A stretch of DNA of 32,793 nt from Candidatus Acidiflorens stordalenmirensis (lineage in GTDB: Bacteria; Acidobacteriota; Terriglobia; Terriglobales; Acidobacteriaceae), in the NCBI GenBank assembly GCA_003139995.1, contig PLIC01000278.1:408-33200 (forward strand), written 5' to 3'. This document shows, in pieces, positions 845 through 29,516 of this stretch (the stretch's first letter is position 1; each line of letters starts with the position of its first letter). Made by a program: the position numbers and the translations under genes. The notes under the pieces are model-generated. The model had not been told where the DNA came from. It worked only from the letters and a program-made list of their open reading frames with translations, and made no database searches.

Positions 845-1573
845 TTGAAACGCTTCTTGTTCACAATCGCCGTCATCGCCATCACCGGATCACTGTTCGC
901 ACAGAATATTCAAGTGAATCGTCAAAACAAGACGATCGCTGTAACTGCCGAGGAGTCCACGACGGCAGATGCCGAAGTAGCGGTGCTCGAGATCGGATAT
1001 CACAATTATGGACTTACGCAAGACGCTACTTTTCAGGAAAACGTCCGGGCGGCCGAGCGGATTACGAAGGCATTACTGGATGCGAAGGTTCCCAAAGCAA
1101 ACATCGAAACCGAGAAACTGCGACTAGCACGCGTGGAAATTGATGAAAAGTGGACTGCTGACATGAAAAAGGAACGTCAGTTCACGGCAGAGCAATCTTG
1201 GCACGTAACTGTGTCTGCTTCTAAGGCACAGACAGTTGTCGATCTCGCTGTCAATGCTGGGGCAAACGAAGTGGATAACGTGGAATGGGACGTCGCCGAC
1301 CCGATAGCGCTGCAGGCCAAAGCAGGTGGCGCCGCGTTGGCTAAGGCAAGGTCTATCGCCGATCAAATGGCAAAAGGGCTGGGGACGAAACTTGGAGAAC
1401 TGGTCTATGCGAGCAATCGCGCACCCGTGGCGAATACATGGCAAACTGTCGAAGTTGACGCCGAACAAAGGATGGCACCGCCTCCACCACCGCCAGCGCC
1501 GCCGAAGCTGACTTTGTTCCCACAGAAGGTAAAGAGCGACGCCACCGTTTATGCGGTGTTTTCGATTGAGTAG
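845..1573 (+). CDS. Secreted SIMPL-domain (DUF541) protein
   Basis: This is a SIMPL/DUF541-family protein of about 242 residues. The family is periplasmic or surface-associated and its molecular role is poorly defined. I chose the TTG start at 845 because GGAGGA lies four bases upstream and the product then begins with a clean signal peptide: a basic Lys-Arg, a hydrophobic stretch of about 15 residues, and Ser-Leu-Phe-Ala-Gln at the likely cleavage site. An upstream ATG in frame at 767 would bury this signal. The body has the expected alternating beta/alpha pattern, with the segment near residues 115-150 typical of SIMPL repeats. Near the C-terminus is a run of Pro residues (APPPPPPAPP) before a final beta strand. 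It stands alone between trpD and the GIY-YIG element. Family assignment is good; function is unknown. Confidence 0.8.
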   Translation: MKRFLFTIAVIAITGSLFAQNIQVNRQNKTIAVTAEESTTADAEVAVLEIGYHNYGLTQDATFQENVRAAERITKALLDAKVPKANIETEKLRLARVEIDEKWTADMKKERQFTAEQSWHVTVSASKAQTVVDLAVNAGANEVDNVEWDVADPIALQAKAGGAALAKARSIADQMAKGLGTKLGELVYASNRAPVANTWQTVEVDAEQRMAPPPPPPAPPKLTLFPQKVKSDATVYAVFSIE

Positions 1574-1590
1574 AGTGCAATCATGCTTCT

Positions 1591-1622
1591 GTCATCCTGA
1601 GCGATGCGAAGGACCTATGCAT
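1591..1622 (+). repeat. 32-bp repeat family A, copy 1
   Basis: This copy begins GTCATCCTGAGCGATGCGAA and ends with CCTATGCAT. It differs from copies 2 and 3 at a single base (GATGCG for GAAGCG). It contains the stop codon of the leftward GIY-YIG gene. Confidence 0.9.
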
Positions 1623-1945
1623 TTGTCCGGCTGGTAGAGATGCCGGCCGTACCACCCTTCACTCAGATCGATCCACGTAGGATTCACGGAAACAATCAAC
1701 TGGATCTTCTTGATCCGAAGCCAGCCTTTGATGCGTTTCTCGCGGTCAATCGCGTTGCGCACATCGTCAAAGCTCTCGTAATAAACGAGCCGATCAATCT
1801 TATAGCGTTTGCAAAACGCAGACCCATTTCCAAACTTGTGTTCCCAAACGCGCCGATGCAGGTTATTTGTAACTCCGACGTAGAGCGTCTGGGAGCGGTT
1901 GGTCAGAATGTAAACGCAGTAGTGCGGGTGATCGCGGGAATGCAT
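1592..1945 (-). CDS. Single-domain GIY-YIG endonuclease-like protein
   Basis: A 117-residue protein of the compact YhbQ/UPF0213-like GIY-YIG group. The two signature strands appear as VYI near residue 12 and LYVG near residue 22. They are followed by Arg-Arg in LHRRVWEHK and the conserved Glu in the REKRIKGW helix, which normally binds the metal. The family cuts DNA by a one-metal mechanism, but cellular roles of these short members are mostly unproven. The ATG lies in the distal end of a family A repeat, where GGACCT precedes it, so the ribosome site also comes from the repeat. The last seven residues (GPSHRSG) and the stop come from the opposite repeat. This tight embedding suggests gene and repeats move or amplify together. 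The nuclease fold is confident; the mobile role is inference. Confidence 0.85.
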   Translation of the reverse strand: MHSRDHPHYCVYILTNRSQTLYVGVTNNLHRRVWEHKFGNGSAFCKRYKIDRLVYYESFDDVRNAIDREKRIKGWLRIKKIQLIVSVNPTWIDLSEGWYGRHLYQPDKCIGPSHRSG

Positions 1946-1971
1946 AGGTCCTTCGCTTCGCTCAGGATGAC
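1940..1971 (-). repeat. 32-bp repeat family A, copy 2 (inverted)
   Basis: The reverse complement is identical to copy 3 at 2064-2095 and differs from copy 1 at one base. It carries the start codon and start region of the GIY-YIG gene. Confidence 0.9.
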
Positions 1972-2063
1972 AGGATTTAAATTGTGCATTGAGAAGATGC
2001 GGAAGTCAGTGAGAGGCGTACAGCAAAATTGTGACGATTTGTGCTTGGCTATCCAAAGCCCTT

Positions 2064-2095
2064 GTCATCCTGAGCGAAGCGAAGGACCTATGCAT
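2064..2095 (+). repeat. 32-bp repeat family A, copy 3
   Basis: A direct match to the reverse complement of copy 2. Copies 2 and 3 form a second inverted pair around a 92-bp AT-richer spacer with no gene, like a short non-autonomous element. The copy ends 23 bp from the stop of the neighbouring MBL-fold gene. Confidence 0.9.
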
Positions 2096-2118
2096 TTTCC
2101 CGCGTCGAGATCAACGTT

Positions 2119-3552
2119 CTATTTCACCTCTACTTTCTCCATATATTCCGCCACCTGCACATTCCATCCCAACTCTTTCTTCATCAGGTCACGTAGCTGC
2201 GACGAAGCGGCGGGCTCGCCGTGGACTAAGTAAGTGGTGGCCGGTTGGTTCTTGAACGTCCGCAGCCACTCCAACATCTCGGGCGGATCGGCGTGATCGC
2301 TGAACTGTTCGAGGGCCGCGACCTGTGCGCGGATGGGCACGAACTGGCCGAATATTTTCACCTCGGGCGCTCCGTTCTTGATGGTTGCGCCGCGCGTGCC
2401 GGGCGCTTGAAAGCCTATAAAAATTACCAGGTTCTTCGGATCGGGCAGACGCTGCGCCAAGTGATGCAAAATGCGGCCGCCCGTAACCATGCCGCTCGAT
2501 GAAACGATGATCGACGGATAGTGGCTTTCGTTGATCTTCTTCGACTGCTCGGCGGTTAGCGCAAACGTGAAGCCCGGCCACTCGACCGGCGAGCCGTATT
2601 TCTCGATCAAATCGGCGGCCCGCGGCGTGTACTCCTCCGAGTGCTTCAAGAAAATTTCAACCGCTTTGATCGCCATGGGGCTGTCGCAAAAAACGGGCAG
2701 GCGCGGAATCTGCCCCGTCTCCACCAATCTTTTTAGGATGAAAAGAAATTTCTGCGTGCGCTCCACGGCAAACGCGGGAACGATGACGGTGCCGCCGCGC
2801 TGCGCGGTCTCGCGAATCAGGCTGGCGAGTTGCGGAAGAGGATCGGTGTCGGGATGCTGGCGGTTTCCGTAAGTGGACTCCATGACCAGCACGTCGGCGG
2901 TCTCGTTTTCCTGCGGCCCGGAGTGCACCACCTTGCCGGGTGCAATCACGCTGTCACGCACGCGGCCAAGGTCGCCGGTGAAAAGCAGCCGGCGGCTCTG
3001 TCCGTTCGTATGCAGCGTGATTTCCGCCATGCAGGAACCCAGAATGTGCGCGGCAGGTACGAAGCGGAACGCCAGCTCGGGGCTCAGTTCGGTGGTTTCA
3101 CCGACCGCGACCGGCTTGAAGCGCTTCAGGCAATCCTGCGCCTCTTCGAGCGTGTACAACGGCAACGCCGGATCGTGCTTCGACACTTTTCTCTTGTTGT
3201 AGAACGCCGCGTCTTCTTCCTGCAGGTGTCCGGAGTCGGGCAGCACGACTGAGCACAGATCGATGGTCGGCTGCGTGGCGTAGATCGGCCCGCGAAAGCC
3301 TTCTTTCACCAGGCGCGGAATCCAGCCACAGTGATCGAGATGCGCGTGGGTAAGAACAACCGCATCGATTTCACGCGCCGGGACCGGAGTGTCCTGCCAG
3401 TTGCGCTCGCGCCATTCTTTCTGTCCCTGGAAAAGCCCGCAATCGATCAGAACCTGAAATCCCCGCTTGCTGCTTGAGGCGTACGTAGTGTTGATCAGGT
3501 GCTTCGAGCCAGTTACGGTCCCGGCAGCGCCGAGAAATTGAATATAGGGCAA
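2119..3552 (-). CDS. MBL-fold/beta-CASP RNA metallo-hydrolase
   Basis: A 477-residue metallo-beta-lactamase protein of the beta-CASP group, the bacterial relatives of CPSF73/Ysh1 that cut RNA. Motif 2 HAHLDH is at residues 69-74 and supplies zinc ligands. TGDLGR follows in the middle of the first MBL segment. The beta-CASP insert carries ESTYGNR and the SSSGMVTGGR motif, and the C-terminal RMMBL part has QFSDHAD and LVHGEP. The length is typical. The start is TTG at 3552, with AAGGAG six bases upstream, giving the conserved beginning Pro-Tyr-Ile-Gln-Phe-Leu-Gly-Ala. No KH domains are present, unlike archaeal aCPSF1. It lies 129 bp downstream of the M1-like peptidase gene, with a hairpin repeat between them. 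Nuclease activity on RNA is expected from the family; the in vivo substrate is unknown. Confidence 0.9.
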   Translation of the reverse strand: MPYIQFLGAAGTVTGSKHLINTTYASSSKRGFQVLIDCGLFQGQKEWRERNWQDTPVPAREIDAVVLTHAHLDHCGWIPRLVKEGFRGPIYATQPTIDLCSVVLPDSGHLQEEDAAFYNKRKVSKHDPALPLYTLEEAQDCLKRFKPVAVGETTELSPELAFRFVPAAHILGSCMAEITLHTNGQSRRLLFTGDLGRVRDSVIAPGKVVHSGPQENETADVLVMESTYGNRQHPDTDPLPQLASLIRETAQRGGTVIVPAFAVERTQKFLFILKRLVETGQIPRLPVFCDSPMAIKAVEIFLKHSEEYTPRAADLIEKYGSPVEWPGFTFALTAEQSKKINESHYPSIIVSSSGMVTGGRILHHLAQRLPDPKNLVIFIGFQAPGTRGATIKNGAPEVKIFGQFVPIRAQVAALEQFSDHADPPEMLEWLRTFKNQPATTYLVHGEPAASSQLRDLMKKELGWNVQVAEYMEKVEVK

Positions 3553-6171: not shown

Positions 6172-6224
6172 CGTGGGGACAGGGCTTTGCCCCGTCCAAG
6201 CGGGGCATAGCCCCGCTTCCACAC
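6172..6224. repeat. Double palindrome (family B) upstream of rlmB
   Basis: Two adjacent palindromes: one built on GGGGCAAAGCCC-like arms around GGGCTTTGCCC, and AAGCGGGGC-ATA-GCCCCGCTT (6198-6218) with perfect 9-bp arms. GTGG and CCAC flank the pair. The same two-hairpin plan recurs at 23358-23407. Confidence 0.8.
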
Positions 6225-22365: not shown

Positions 22366-22430
22366 GTAGAGACGCGGCTTGCCGCGTCTCCCGCTGCGTA
22401 CGAAGGAGACGGGGCAAGCCCCGTCTCTAC
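22366..22430. repeat. Composite palindromic element (family B) between sucD and ndk
   Basis: Two 25-bp palindromes, GTAGAGACGCGGCTTGCCGC... (22366-22390) and GAGACGGGGCAAGCCCCGTC... (22406-22430), are separated by 15 bp and bounded by GTAGAGAC and GTCTCTAC. The sucD stop codon lies in the right half. The left half is identical to the copy in scpA and the right half to the copy in scpB. Confidence 0.88.
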
Positions 22431-23305
22431 ACTCGCACTCCCAGCGCGGCGGCGAGCGTTTCGCCGATGTCAGCTGGCGATTTCGCGACCTTGAGGCCAG
22501 CTTCTTCCATGGCGGCAATCTTCTCGGCCGCAGTGCCCTTGCCGCCGGAGATGATCGCGCCGGCGTGGCCCATGCGGCGTCCGGGAGGAGCTGTTTGTCC
22601 GGCAATGAAGCCCACAACCGGCTTCTTCATGTGCGTCCTGATGAACTCCGCGGCGATCTCCTCCGCGTTGCCACCGATTTCCCCGATCATGACCACGGCT
22701 TCGGTCTGCGGATCGCGGTTGAACAGCTCGAGCGCGTCGACAAAATTCGTGCCGATAATCGGATCCCCGCCAATTCCGAGCGCGGTCGATTGTCCGATCC
22801 CGCGCTGGGTAAGCTGATGCACCGCTTCGTAGGTTAGCGTCCCGGAGCGCGACACGATGCCAACATTTCCTTCCTTGTGGATGTGTCCCGGCATGATGCC
22901 GATCTTGCATTTGCCCGGCGAGATGATGCCCGGGCAGTTCGGCCCGATCAAGCGCGAGCGCCGGTTCTGCAGGAACTCCCAGGCGCGCACCATGTCCAGC
23001 GTCGGAATGCCCTCGGTGATGCAGACGATGAGTTCGATTTCAGCATCGGCCGCTTCCATAATCGCATCCGCCGCGTACGGCGGCGGCACAAAAATGACCG
23101 TGGCATTCGCGCCCGTCTTGTCCGCCGCTTCCTGCACGGTATTGAAAATCGGCCAGCCTTCGTGTGTCGTCCCGCCCTTGCCGGGCGTCACGCCGCCCAC
23201 AATCTGCGTGCCGTAAGCCGCGCAAGCCTTCGCGTGGAAAGTGCCTTCGCGGCCCGTCAGACCTTGCACAACCAATCGAGTTTTCTTATCAGCTAGGATT
23301 GCCAT
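22427..23305 (-). CDS. sucD: Succinyl-CoA synthetase alpha subunit
   Basis: A 292-residue alpha subunit. With SucC it interconverts succinyl-CoA and succinate with nucleotide phosphorylation in the TCA cycle. It has the CoA-binding Rossmann start ([18 protein letters not shown]), the [21 protein letters not shown] core, and the phosphohistidine segment RMGHAGAI near residue 245. The length is standard. The stop codon coincides with the end of a palindromic repeat, so the last residues may have been altered by its insertion. sucC is 110 bp upstream, again separated by a palindromic repeat. Identification is firm. Confidence 0.98.
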
Positions 23306-23357: not shown

Positions 23358-23407
23358 GTGGCGACGGGGCTTTGCCCCGTCCCGGCGGGGCAGAGCCCCG
23401 CCACCAC
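23358..23407. repeat. Double palindrome (family B) between sucC and sucD
   Basis: ACGGGGC-TTT-GCCCCGT (23364-23380) and GGCGGGGC-AGA-GCCCCGCC (23384-23402) lie side by side, flanked by GTGG and CCAC. The plan is the same as at 6172-6224. In the transcript it would form two strong hairpins between the two subunit genes. Confidence 0.85.
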
Positions 23408-23415
23408 ACAGCCGA

Positions 23416-24608: not shown

Positions 24609-24640
24609 CGTCGTTAGTCGTTGGTCGTTAGTCGTTCGCG
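24609..24640. repeat. Short-word repeat (family E), single arm
   Basis: Contains tandem CGTTAGTCGTTGGTCGTTAG-type words, the same as the left arm at 28501. No second arm is seen here. It lies upstream of sucC. Confidence 0.6.
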
Positions 24641-24826
24641 ATTACGAGCTGCGGCAACTGCCTCTAATGGACTCCCGAGAGGACTCTGATTGCGGATTGG
24701 ACTGCGGTCCAGCAAACCTTCGATTCTATAAGACGCAAGCACAATCGGCAAAGCGTGAGGGGCTGAAGAGAGGGTAAAAGAGCTTAAAGAGTCTACCCGG
24801 CTGCGTCGATCTTGTATCCTGAAAGC

Positions 24827-27691: not shown

Positions 27692-28492
27692 CTACTCCGG
27701 GTTGACGTCGGCTGGCGTTTCGGTTTCTTCTTCTTCGGGGGCGAGTTCGGGTTCGATCGACTCGGCAATTTCAGCAGCACCTTCTGTTTCTGAGGAACTA
27801 TCCTCAACCGTTAAAGATTCATCCCCGGCGGTTAGCGGCAAACTTAAAGATTCTTCCTCAGGCTTGTCCTTGCTCGGAGACGGGGCAAGCCCCGTCTCTA
27901 CACTTATCGCAGGCAGGTCGCTCTGGAACGACTCCGCCAGCAGTTTCTCGAATTCCTCCATGCTGGGCAGTTCGTTGACGTCCTTGAGCCCGAAGCGCAG
28001 CAGAAACTCTTTGCTGGTTTTGTAGAGGATGGGGCGGCCGATTACGGCTTTTCTGCCCGCGGTCGTGATCAGCTTGCGGTCGAGCAGGGTGGCGATGACT
28101 CCGCCGGAATCGACGCCGCGGATTTCGCTGATCTCGGGCACCGTGACCGGCTGTTTGTAGGCGACGACGGCAAGAGTTTCGAGCGCCGGAAGCGACAGCC
28201 GGAAAGGCGGTTTCAGACTTTTGGCGAAGGCGCGCACCACGTCGTGTTGCTCGGGCTTGGTGGACATGCGGTATCCGCCGGCAACTTGGCGGATTTCGAT
28301 TCCGTGGTTTGCGCCGGAGTAATCCATGATGAGCTCTTCGAGCGTGGCGCGGATGCGCGAATTAATTTCCGCGGCATCGATTCCCGGAGTTTCCGCGAGC
28401 AGCGACTCCTTTACCAGCGAAGAAATCTGGTCGAGCGAAATGGGCGTCTCCGCCGCGTAAATGATGGCTTCGAGTTGAGGTCTAAGATTCAT
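27692..28492 (-). CDS. scpB: Segregation and condensation protein B
   Basis: A 266-residue ScpB, the winged-helix kleisin-associated subunit of the SMC-ScpAB complex that compacts and segregates chromosomes. The core (about 1-175) has LEAIIYAAETPISLDQI, LSLPALETLAVVAYKQPVTVPEISEIRGVDSGGV, and GRPILYKTSKEFLLRFGL. The family usually ends near 180-200 residues; this one continues with about 85 acidic and Ser/Pro/Glu-rich residues to the end. A 25-bp palindromic repeat (27877-27901) lies in that extension, encoding VETGLAPSP. The extension is probably disordered. It is 6 bp upstream of rluB and 103 bp downstream of scpA. Confidence 0.95.
   Translation of the reverse strand: MNLRPQLEAIIYAAETPISLDQISSLVKESLLAETPGIDAAEINSRIRATLEELIMDYSGANHGIEIRQVAGGYRMSTKPEQHDVVRAFAKSLKPPFRLSLPALETLAVVAYKQPVTVPEISEIRGVDSGGVIATLLDRKLITTAGRKAVIGRPILYKTSKEFLLRFGLKDVNELPSMEEFEKLLAESFQSDLPAISVETGLAPSPSKDKPEEESLSLPLTAGDESLTVEDSSSETEGAAEIAESIEPELAPEEEETETPADVNPE
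27877..27901. repeat. Family B palindrome inside scpB
   Basis: A 25-bp copy identical to 22406-22430, beginning GAGACGGGGCAAGCCCCGTC. It is read in frame on the minus strand as part of the ScpB C-terminal extension. Confidence 0.88.
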
Positions 28493-28500
28493 AAGAATCG

Positions 28501-28592
28501 TCGTTGGTCGTTAGTCGTTCGTCGTTGGCTATTCGCCGTTAATCGCGGGTGGCAACCTTTGCTAACGACCAGCGACGAACGACCAACGACCT
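28501..28592. repeat. Short-word inverted repeat (family E) between scpA and scpB
   Basis: The left arm (28501-28527) is built of TCGTTGGTCG and TTAGTCG words. The right arm (28561-28592) is CTAACGACC, GCGACGAACG and ACCAACGACC. The arms pair imperfectly around about 33 bp. It occupies nearly the whole gap between the two condensin genes. Confidence 0.75.
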
Positions 28593-28595
28593 TCT

Positions 28596-29516
28596 TCATC
28601 TCCAATCGTCACGCACCGCGGCTTGCTCGGTCATTACTTGTTCGAAGTGGGAATGCTTGCGTACCAGCACTTCGCCGAAGACGTGGTCCTGCCGTACCTG
28701 GATCGCCTGCAACCGGACCAGTTCGAGCAACGCCAAAAACATGCAGACCAGCGCCGGCCGCGACGGCACATTGCGCAGCATCTGCTTCAGGCGAATCGGG
28801 CGATCTTCGAGCGAGAGCCGGCGGTGCAGGTACTGGATCATCTGGCTGACGGTTACGGTCTCTTCGTCGACTTCGAGGATTGGCCGCGTGCGCGCCCGGT
28901 CCAAGACCTGCTGGAAGGTCTTGACCAGGTCGATGACATCGGCGGCAAGTTCAGGCTCGGCGCCCTCGGCGTCCATGAACTCGCGGATCGCTGGATTGCT
29001 CAGCACCGCGTCTTCAATCTGCTGTTTCTGCAGGAGCATTTGTGCCGCGGATTTGAATTTTTCGTGCTCGAGCAGGCGGTTGACGAGTTCGTTGCGGGGG
29101 TCTTCCTGAGCGTCGGCGGGAGCGAGCGGATCGCGTGGCAACAACATCTTCGACTTGATGTGAATCAGCACGGCGGCCATGTAGATAAACTCGGAGGCAA
29201 CGTTCACGTCGAGTTCGCGTATACGCTCGACATACGCGAGGTACTGCGCCGTGATCCTGGCGATGGGAATATCGTAAATGTTGATGTCCTGCTTGCGGAT
29301 CAGGTCGAGCAGCAGGTCGAGCGGGCCTTCGTAGATTTCGCCGAGCGCAATGGCGAACGGGAAATCGCTGGCATCATCTTTGGCGGACTTGGTCGTGGAT
29401 TTGCTCCCCCGTAGAGACGCGGCTTGCCGCGTCTCCGCTGAAACCACCGGAGCCGCGCCGGGCCCAGAAACCTCGACTGGAGCCGGTTCTGATGTAGGTT
29501 GAGACAAATCCGTCAC
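28596..29516 (-). CDS. scpA: Segregation and condensation protein A
   Basis: A 306-residue kleisin of the SMC complex. The conserved part begins near residue 62 (YEGPLDLLLDLIRKQDINIYDIPIA) and includes VASEFIYMAAVLIHIKSKMLLPRDP, a middle linker, and the C-terminal winged helix near FLALLELVRLQAIQVRQ. An N-terminal extension of about 60 residues is Pro/Ala/Ser-rich and contains a 25-bp palindromic repeat (29411-29435), encoding ETRQAASLR. The start is GTG 29516, which overlaps the trpS stop as GTGA, so translation is coupled; AAGGA lies about nine bases upstream. After Asp-Trp-Arg at the end comes the gap to scpB. Confidence 0.95.
   Translation of the reverse strand: MTDLSQPTSEPAPVEVSGPGAAPVVSAETRQAASLRGSKSTTKSAKDDASDFPFAIALGEIYEGPLDLLLDLIRKQDINIYDIPIARITAQYLAYVERIRELDVNVASEFIYMAAVLIHIKSKMLLPRDPLAPADAQEDPRNELVNRLLEHEKFKSAAQMLLQKQQIEDAVLSNPAIREFMDAEGAEPELAADVIDLVKTFQQVLDRARTRPILEVDEETVTVSQMIQYLHRRLSLEDRPIRLKQMLRNVPSRPALVCMFLALLELVRLQAIQVRQDHVFGEVLVRKHSHFEQVMTEQAAVRDDWR
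29411..29435. repeat. Family B palindrome inside scpA
   Basis: A 25-bp copy identical to 22366-22390, beginning GTAGAGACGCGGCTTGCCGC. It is read through in the disordered N-terminal extension of ScpA. Confidence 0.88.

Follow-up and report, generated by a model that had tools for sequence, protein, structure and literature searches.

What does a small nuclease gene do between two inverted copies of a repeat that its host carries in many places? The question is raised by a locus of Candidatus Acidiflorens stordalenmirensis (Acidobacteriota), in a stretch of 32,793 nucleotides from contig PLIC01000278.1 (hereafter the window), where P0001, a gene for a GIY-YIG nuclease, lies between inverted repetitive extragenic palindromic (REP) sequences. 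Few repeats are as common in bacteria as REPs. We consider it rather probable that the REP-associated GIY-YIG nuclease is the enzyme half of a two-part system, in which it would cut REPs of the CGTC/TGTC-tagged superfamily and so bring about their spread.

In window coordinates, the arm at 1591–1622 and the reverse complement of 1940–1971 are identical at 31 of 32 bases, and an inverted-repeat search gives them a full extent of 35 nt (1589–1623 and 1939–1973, 97% complementary). The start codon (1945–1943) lies inside one arm and the stop codon (1594–1592) inside the other. The initial annotation had described 32-bp inverted repeats around the gene, with its start and stop codons inside them, a GIY-YIG product and a repeat found genome-wide, and all of this is borne out: the Pfam match exceeds the curated cut-off, and the repeat core TGTCAYCCYGAGCG has 93 copies in the host draft genome (5.49 Mb, 313 contigs), against 0 for the pattern read backwards. 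The repeats flanking the gene start with TGTCAT. A third REP copy is part of the arrangement, as the block in common with a second site, described below, spans 1589–2094. The features are as follows.

1589..2094, about 505 bp: the REP-bounded unit (plus-strand REP, minus-strand nuclease gene, minus-strand REP, 90 bp, plus-strand REP), present in the genus at two sites unrelated to each other
1590..1623, plus strand: REP copy 1, tag TGTC outward and tail CCTATGCA inward, containing the nuclease stop codon
1592..1945, minus strand: GIY-YIG nuclease gene P0001, 117 amino acids, PF01541 at E 6e-14
1939..1972, minus strand: REP copy 2, inverted, containing the nuclease start codon
1973..2062, no strand: stretch of about 90 bp on the upstream side of the nuclease, moving along with it, homologous at sites A and B
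2063..2096, plus strand: REP copy 3, 100% complementary to the right arm

The host carries a second small GIY-YIG gene (contig C159, loci L010/L041), 54% alike and thus no near-identical copy of the first. It too has inverted repeats on both sides, with the same tag and a different hairpin and tail.

Is this pairing a peculiarity of one locus? Of 61 genomes, 27 (counting the host) have homologues of P0001. We collected 187 loci in three sets: relatives (50 loci, with a few short partial matches left out), a named set (the best 80 of 578 candidates, to which all counts for named loci refer) and Alphaproteobacteria (57 loci, comprising best matches and 20 picked ones; 49 come from a sample of 114 genomes, the other 8 from four genomes reached via named loci, one being the centre of the sample). 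For 129 of the 187 the flanks were usable; 58 were excluded because the matched stretch contained a stop, the match fell below 80 amino acids or a flank was shorter than 150 bases. Arms, counted where the arm score was at least 15 or the repeat motif stood on both sides, were present at 102 of the 129 loci and in 3 of 295 shifted control windows, the 129 not being independent events because orthologous loci are included.

The enrichment is specific to position and strand. Among the relatives, 40 of 50 loci carry an outward motif on both sides, with 52 outward motifs in the first 300 bp upstream against 4 in the next 1200, and 45 against 6 downstream. Motifs on the opposite strand near the gene numbered 14 and 13, making outward ones 3–4 times commoner than inward ones. 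Among the named loci, the arm score reached at least 15 at 43 of 79 and in 1 of 56 shifted controls; where flanks were complete, the motif stood on both sides at 40 of 67 loci (0 of 135 control windows) and on at least one side at 60 of 67.

By group, as read from record titles, arms were found at named loci of Acidobacteria (16/20), Verrucomicrobia (6/7), Chloroflexi (6/12), Planctomycetes (4/4), Patescibacteria (4/4), Deltaproteobacteria (4/4), Bacteroidetes (3/3), Alphaproteobacteria (3/4), Firmicutes (6/11) and Ignavibacteria (1/2), and at 1/1 each in Gemmatimonadetes, Nitrospina, Omnitrophota, Zixibacteria and an unassigned bacterium. Betaproteobacteria, Cloacimonadota, Cyanobacteria and Hebobacteria gave 0/1 each, all four with a one-sided motif. 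Repeats are common in these genomes, and small genes and repeats might simply gather in the same intergenic regions, by coincidence or at insertion hot spots. We regard this as scarcely credible, given the enrichment over other stretches of the same contigs, the matching of arms within a locus and the recurrence over many phyla; chance clustering was rejected on the comparison with distant flank bins and shifted windows.

The architecture varies. Many homologues have their arms tens of bases beyond the matched domain, so that the start-to-stop enclosure belongs to the sub-clade of the window. At L024, L212, L156 and L169 there are two REPs per arm, nested or oppositely oriented. Several nucleases, L021, L031 and L044 among them, have C-termini apparently encoded by the downstream REP, with the recurrent ends ...RLLRSG and ...ARDDN. 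At one conserved site (L030 1492–2652, L033 1501–2628, L043 1495–2655, L046 617–1777) the GIY-YIG frame continues without a stop into enoyl-CoA hydratase-like sequence, giving a fused frame of 376–387 amino acids. L033 is the one case in which the two domains were confirmed, and the linker looks REP-encoded. Copy number varies as well: the alphaproteobacterium G179 has 11 GIY-YIG matches, and G026, from the host's family, has 8 match rows, several of them broken or split. Such many copies, some decayed, possibly record bursts.

What kind of enzyme is this? PF01541 (GIY-YIG) is the only Pfam match of the 117-residue open reading frame at E ≤ 0.001, at 52.5 bits against a cut-off of 22.6. Pfam revealed no second domain in the protein and, at the same threshold, no HUH/Y1 transposase domain (PF01797), the mark of a REP-associated tyrosine transposase (RAYT). 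PADLOC had no match for P0001, and NCBIfam none for either host GIY-YIG protein; in PHROGs, a homing endonuclease family was matched weakly (E 8e-5). P0001 carries the family-invariant alignment columns Y12, L21, Y22, G24, R32, H36, E69 and N88, of which Y12, L21, Y22, G24, R32 and E69 are shared by all 24 homologues in the alignment; we take the conserved residues to be of the catalytic type.

The AlphaFold model is a confident single GIY-YIG domain (mean pLDDT, the predicted local distance difference test, 85.5). The protein matches the UPF0213 structure 1zg2 in sequence (E 2e-10), and Foldseek returned the same entry as the nearest solved fold (E 3e-4), followed by the structure-selective nuclease Slx1 (6seh, an entry on branched DNA), weaker at E 0.013 but with probability 1.00. 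Single-domain GIY-YIG proteins of the UPF0213 type are thus alike in sequence and fold, and Slx1 in fold. We know of no repeat association of UPF0213, and our literature searches, which covered open-licence articles and no preprints, found nothing joining GIY-YIG with UPF0213.

The nuclease genes evolve under purifying selection: the ratio of nonsynonymous to synonymous substitution rates is 0.04–0.11 across 9 nuclease pairs, and 0.07–0.11 for P0001 against three orthologues from site B. Such constraint would also suit a nuclease domesticated by the host, trimming or resolving REP hairpins in genome maintenance or mRNA processing without spreading repeats. The Slx1-like fold and the keeping of the gene at fixed sites, some common to several genera, point the same way. 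A housekeeping role sits poorly with the patchy distribution (27/61 genomes, and relatives' sites without the gene), with the unit's change of site and with the 11 matches in one alphaproteobacterial genome, and we judge it improbable.

Which repeats does the nuclease keep company with? Di Nocera (PMC3733652, 2013) divided REPs into GTAG and CGTC super-families. According to the part of that article available, CGTC REPs have the tag CGTC or TGTC and a stem starting with AT, form mostly tags-outward (head-to-head, HH) dimers, include Neisseria dRS3 and Rickettsia RPE-4/RPE-6, occur mostly in Alphaproteobacteria, and “apparently lack a dedicated transposase”. The term GIY has 0 occurrences in PMC3733652. 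The arms around the nuclease genes have the superfamily's tag (CGTC or TGTC, stem starting AT, with variants such as TGTCAC), and the GTAG tag of RAYT-type REPs is absent from them. These repeats therefore fit the CGTC-tagged REP superfamily.

The Alphaproteobacteria allow this match to be followed in the superfamily's main territory. With up to 39 candidates scored per genome, the nuclease was detected in 44 of 114 sampled genomes. Arm scores of at least 15 occurred at 23 of 57 alphaproteobacterial loci; the shifted controls reached this in 1 of 68 cases and the permuted ones in 11 of 300. Strict CGTC hairpins pointing outward numbered 20 in the first 250 bp upstream against 3 in the next 750, and 16 near the gene downstream against 8 in the next 750. 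With a stem of at least 8 and a CCA-type tail, they stood on both sides at 7 of 55 loci and in 0 of 98 windows, and CCA ends the tail of 12 of the 14 arms shown for those loci. Examples are CGTCATCCCCGCGAATGCGGGGATCCA (L241) and CGTCACCCCGGACTTGTTCCGGGGTCC (L235); in G086 the nuclease (1556809–1557087) lies between REPs at 1556767 (plus) and 1557094 (minus). The window's type-1 repeat, with its tail CCTATGCA and short imperfect stem, is unlike this form with 8–9 bp stem, loop of 4–5 and CCA tail. A looser REP detector (stem of 7 bp, loops of up to 60) was set aside, since its high background left weak enrichment (both sides: Alphaproteobacteria 17/55 against 10/98, named loci 15/73 against 6/137), and the strict detector and arm score were used instead.

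Could a RAYT-type (Y1/HUH) or other transposase move the repeats, with the GIY-YIG gene as a passenger? Y1 transposase genes, whose products are the REP movers known so far, do occur in 50 of 61 genomes. We examined the flanks of the best Y1 match in each of 30 genomes (27 with full flanks), Y1 being the one transposase family covered. Outward TGTCAT motifs stood on both sides at 0 of 30 loci and on one side at 1, and Y1 transposases were rejected as movers on these flanks. In addition, 14 genomes of the order and class carry Y1 and 0 repeats; conversely, G005, G009 and G022 have repeats and no Y1 match. A passenger role is accordingly very unlikely.

Do the repeats track the nuclease gene from genome to genome? 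In counts uncorrected for phylogeny, genome size and completeness, they do. The CGTC pattern occurs in 24 of 44 gene-positive and 8 of 70 gene-negative alphaproteobacterial genomes (p 1e-6), with 462 copies in the former against 57 in the latter, 38 of these 57 in one genome; among small genomes, 6 of 11 gene-positive ones have at least 3 copies, against 1 of 41. In the host's genus, the median is 91 core repeats in 17 gene-positive genomes against 31 in 7 gene-negative ones (p 8e-4), and in the family 76.5 in 26 against 23 in 11 (p 0.007). In the other family of the order, nuclease and repeats are both absent from 14 of 14 genomes.

Nucleases and their arms are also matched within loci. Where a genome has more than one nuclease (88 loci), the arms of a locus match each other better (median 13.25) than they match the arms of paralogues (11.1; Wilcoxon p 2e-7). 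The own-arm match beats every paralogue at 43 of the 88, and at 32 of the 38 loci with strong arms. Counting type-1 tails in the genus was tried as a separator and rejected as a poor one, with 3–17 copies in 7 genomes that have a type-1 nuclease and 0–14 in 17 that have none.

The anatomy of the repeats bears on how a protein might read them. In a second repeat type (14 distinct arms), 98.5% of stem cells are paired and 13 of 19 pairs have changed on both sides, with a covariation of 0.538 against 0.152 in shuffled and at most 0.086 in slid alignments. Compensatory changes have rebuilt the stem, and tag, hairpin base and tail hardly vary; a protein that reads the hairpin by its base would leave such a trace.

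Away from the nuclease, repeats often stand as close doublets. By the strict motif, 14 of 36 host stretches with dispersed copies hold a close tags-outward doublet. Among the listed repeat places of the four genomes listed at length, 44 doublets are tags-outward, 0 tags-inward and 1 direct, and spacing is narrow (59–66 bp in G008, 69–83 in G086, 43–58 in G083). This orientation is that of the arms around the nuclease. Two doublets fold into one hairpin each (L066, z −11.2; L067, z −9.2). At L065–L068, some dispersed host doublets are themselves enclosed by another inverted repeat (CCGCAAGTTCGCGGTATAAAT on the left in L067, TTTATGTCGCGAATTTACGGGA on the right in L068), which suggests a longer composite element.

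Has the unit itself changed place? To the left of the unit in the window lies a SIMPL gene (PF04402), with a PF00591 gene further left that we take to be trpD-like; on the right is a Beta-Casp/RMMBL metallo-hydrolase. The statements on sites rest on the DNA of the loci; the genome scans scored part of the first-look candidates in most genomes. Type-1 units occur at two unrelated sites in different species of the genus, site A between the trpD-like and Beta-Casp genes, and site B after a DUF2203 gene. Window positions 1589–2094 align with 1469–1973 of L015 at 84.4% identity over 508 columns, ending at the REP borders; beyond this block, a query with window 1300–2400 met single REP matches only in L015.

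At site A of G018, trpD-like homology stops 19 bases before the unit, which continues into the Beta-Casp side. In G017 the distance is 20 bases, to a lone REP that leads on into the Beta-Casp side, and there is no nuclease. The difference at this site is therefore a REP-bounded unit beside a REP. Lone REPs without nuclease also occur there in G020, G004 and G011; in these three and in G017, right-side homology to the window begins at 2059–2063. The host additionally has the SIMPL gene between the trpD-like gene and the unit, and its site A shows a direct REP duplication. G003, G002 and G006 have neither unit nor recognisable REP between the trpD-like and Beta-Casp genes, and in G010 the SIMPL and Beta-Casp genes are joined by 83 bp that contain no REP. 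At site B, the unit is present in G015, G009, G020 and G012, and absent from the host, G018 and others; G017 lacks the nuclease there and keeps a degraded remnant of the 90-bp stretch (window 1981–2089 at 72%). At an amidase-tyrS site, G010 and G021 have a lone downstream REP, and some nuclease sites are common to different genera. Taken together, the site patterns imply that the nuclease genes are mostly inherited, often lost and sometimes moved. The initial annotation had suspected mobility and had named a comparison for empty sites as a check. A REP-bounded unit did change place, and a lone REP marks site A in G017 where G018 has the unit; a part for the nuclease as the agent is something we infer.

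An exact position beside a REP, with a direct REP duplication at site A, is also what a homing-type selfish gene would leave, one whose nuclease cuts REPs to spread only its own unit while something else multiplies the repeats. The weak homing endonuclease match and the persistence of repeats without the gene are in keeping with this. Under such a scheme the repeats need not be commoner where the gene is present, as they are; the only other multiplier covered, Y1, lacks such arms altogether (0/30 on both sides); and the dispersed doublets share the orientation of the gene's arms. We hold this to be unlikely, although less so than the other alternatives.

We thus favour a nuclease that acts on the REPs at large, and the steps may be pictured as follows. 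The nuclease gene would occupy the spacer position of a tags-outward REP doublet, and the dispersed doublets would be its non-autonomous partners. REPs in single-stranded DNA could form hairpins, or doublets cruciforms, and the nuclease may recognise tag and hairpin base and cut there. Repair of the cut would then place a copy, either of a REP doublet or of the REP-nuclease-REP unit, within another REP or next to it. The route would be homing-like cut and repair instead of strand transfer by a transposase, and would spread the enzyme's own gene now and then. GIY-YIG enzymes hydrolyse DNA and do not join strands, which is why we prefer cut and repair to transposition.

Several observations weigh against a nuclease that drives the spread of its REPs. 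Of the usable loci, 23 of 129 have a one-sided motif and 4 none at all, so the flanks are not always these repeats, a point raised by the initial annotation. In the named set, inward motifs are enriched near the gene too, at about half the level of outward ones. A single type-1 arm folds no better than its shuffles (z 0). The correlation of gene and repeats, besides being uncorrected, is weak in large alphaproteobacterial genomes (at least 3 CGTC copies in 11/33 against 3/29, p 0.037), and since up to 39 candidates were scored per genome, some gene-negative genomes may be missed positives.

Further, some gene-negative genomes are rich in repeats (54 copies in G017, 41 in G006, 32 in G056, and 38 CGTC REPs in G163), so that repeat counts follow the gene, as the initial annotation had thought worth checking, in the medians and not in every genome. 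The type-1 tail CGAAGGACCTATGCA is present in 14 of 17 genus genomes without a type-1 nuclease. Similarity of nucleases is weakly correlated with similarity of arms over 69 loci (Mantel r 0.16, p 0.013), with p 0.051 for pairs below 60% identity. As for movement, gain beside a REP and loss by recombination between direct REPs would leave the same picture at site A, ordinary REP-REP recombination could have moved the unit, and the amidase-tyrS site reflects mainly one old insertion followed by inheritance and loss.

How does the arrangement compare with systems already described? In the available parts of Nunvar 2010 (PMC2817692) and Bertels 2011 (PMC3116915), REP/RAYT (TnpA-REP) systems, or REPtrons, likewise have a small enzyme gene between two inverted REPs with matching arms, a correlation of enzyme and repeats, and few distinct copies per genome. 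RAYTs are reported there as single, distinct copies (PMC3116915, in the part available), and the inheritance pattern of the nuclease genes is much alike. REP doublets of the REPIN type share the tags-outward inverted arrangement and narrow spacing, and differ in having been described for GTAG REPs and RAYTs (PMC3116915, same part). The CGTC REPs of PMC3733652 share tag, AT stem start and HH dimers, and the strict alphaproteobacterial arms mostly have their CCA tail; in the part of that article available they come without a dedicated enzyme, and the acidobacterial members differ in having other tails and longer or imperfect stems. GIY-YIG homing endonucleases share the catalytic domain PF01541 and the weak PHROGs match; here the gene is free-standing between REPs, with no intron or intein setting seen. 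The difference from REP/RAYT lies in the enzyme, GIY-YIG and not HUH/Y1, and in the repeats, TGTC/CGTC and not GTAG. Covalent tyrosine chemistry is not expected of a GIY-YIG enzyme.

From these comparisons we propose that the nuclease works like the enzyme of a REP/RAYT pair without being a RAYT, and may best be described as a GIY-YIG counterpart serving CGTC/TGTC REPs. For the REP/RAYT-like role suggested initially, the association across phyla, the arm matching and the repeats' tracking of the gene speak in favour, and mobilisation by the nuclease would be the step beyond these. A stronger form holds that minimal GIY-YIG nucleases are the missing dedicated enzyme of the CGTC/TGTC REPs and constitute a separate class of repeat dispersal, by break-and-repair copying without HUH transposition, in Acidobacteriota, Alphaproteobacteria, Chloroflexota, Verrucomicrobiota, Planctomycetota, Bacteroidota and Patescibacteria, among others; to this we give an even chance. 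A concrete candidate makes the question of the CGTC superfamily's enzyme testable. If the nuclease does drive the spread, two unrelated folds, HUH and GIY-YIG, would have converged on the same genomic arrangement.

Judged by article listings, the literature searched contained no link of GIY-YIG with REP, RAYT, palindromic or inverted repeats, palindromic elements or miniature inverted-repeat transposable elements in bacteria, no such link in work on REPIN/RAYT/nuclease or on CGTC repeats, and no match to the repeat's own sequence; the available parts of PMC12306157 and PMC5082802 have 0 mentions of GIY. As the scope was open-licence literature, this is no proof of novelty.

The window contains other repeats as well. 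Palindromic repeats of the GACGGGGC..GCCCCGTC types, unlike the TGTCAT family, lie at 6173–6224, 22366–22433, 23358–23409, 27876–27904 and 29411–29436, and repeats of GTCGTTNGTCGTT-like units, partly in inverted order, at 24610–24644, 28500–28534 and 28561–28590.
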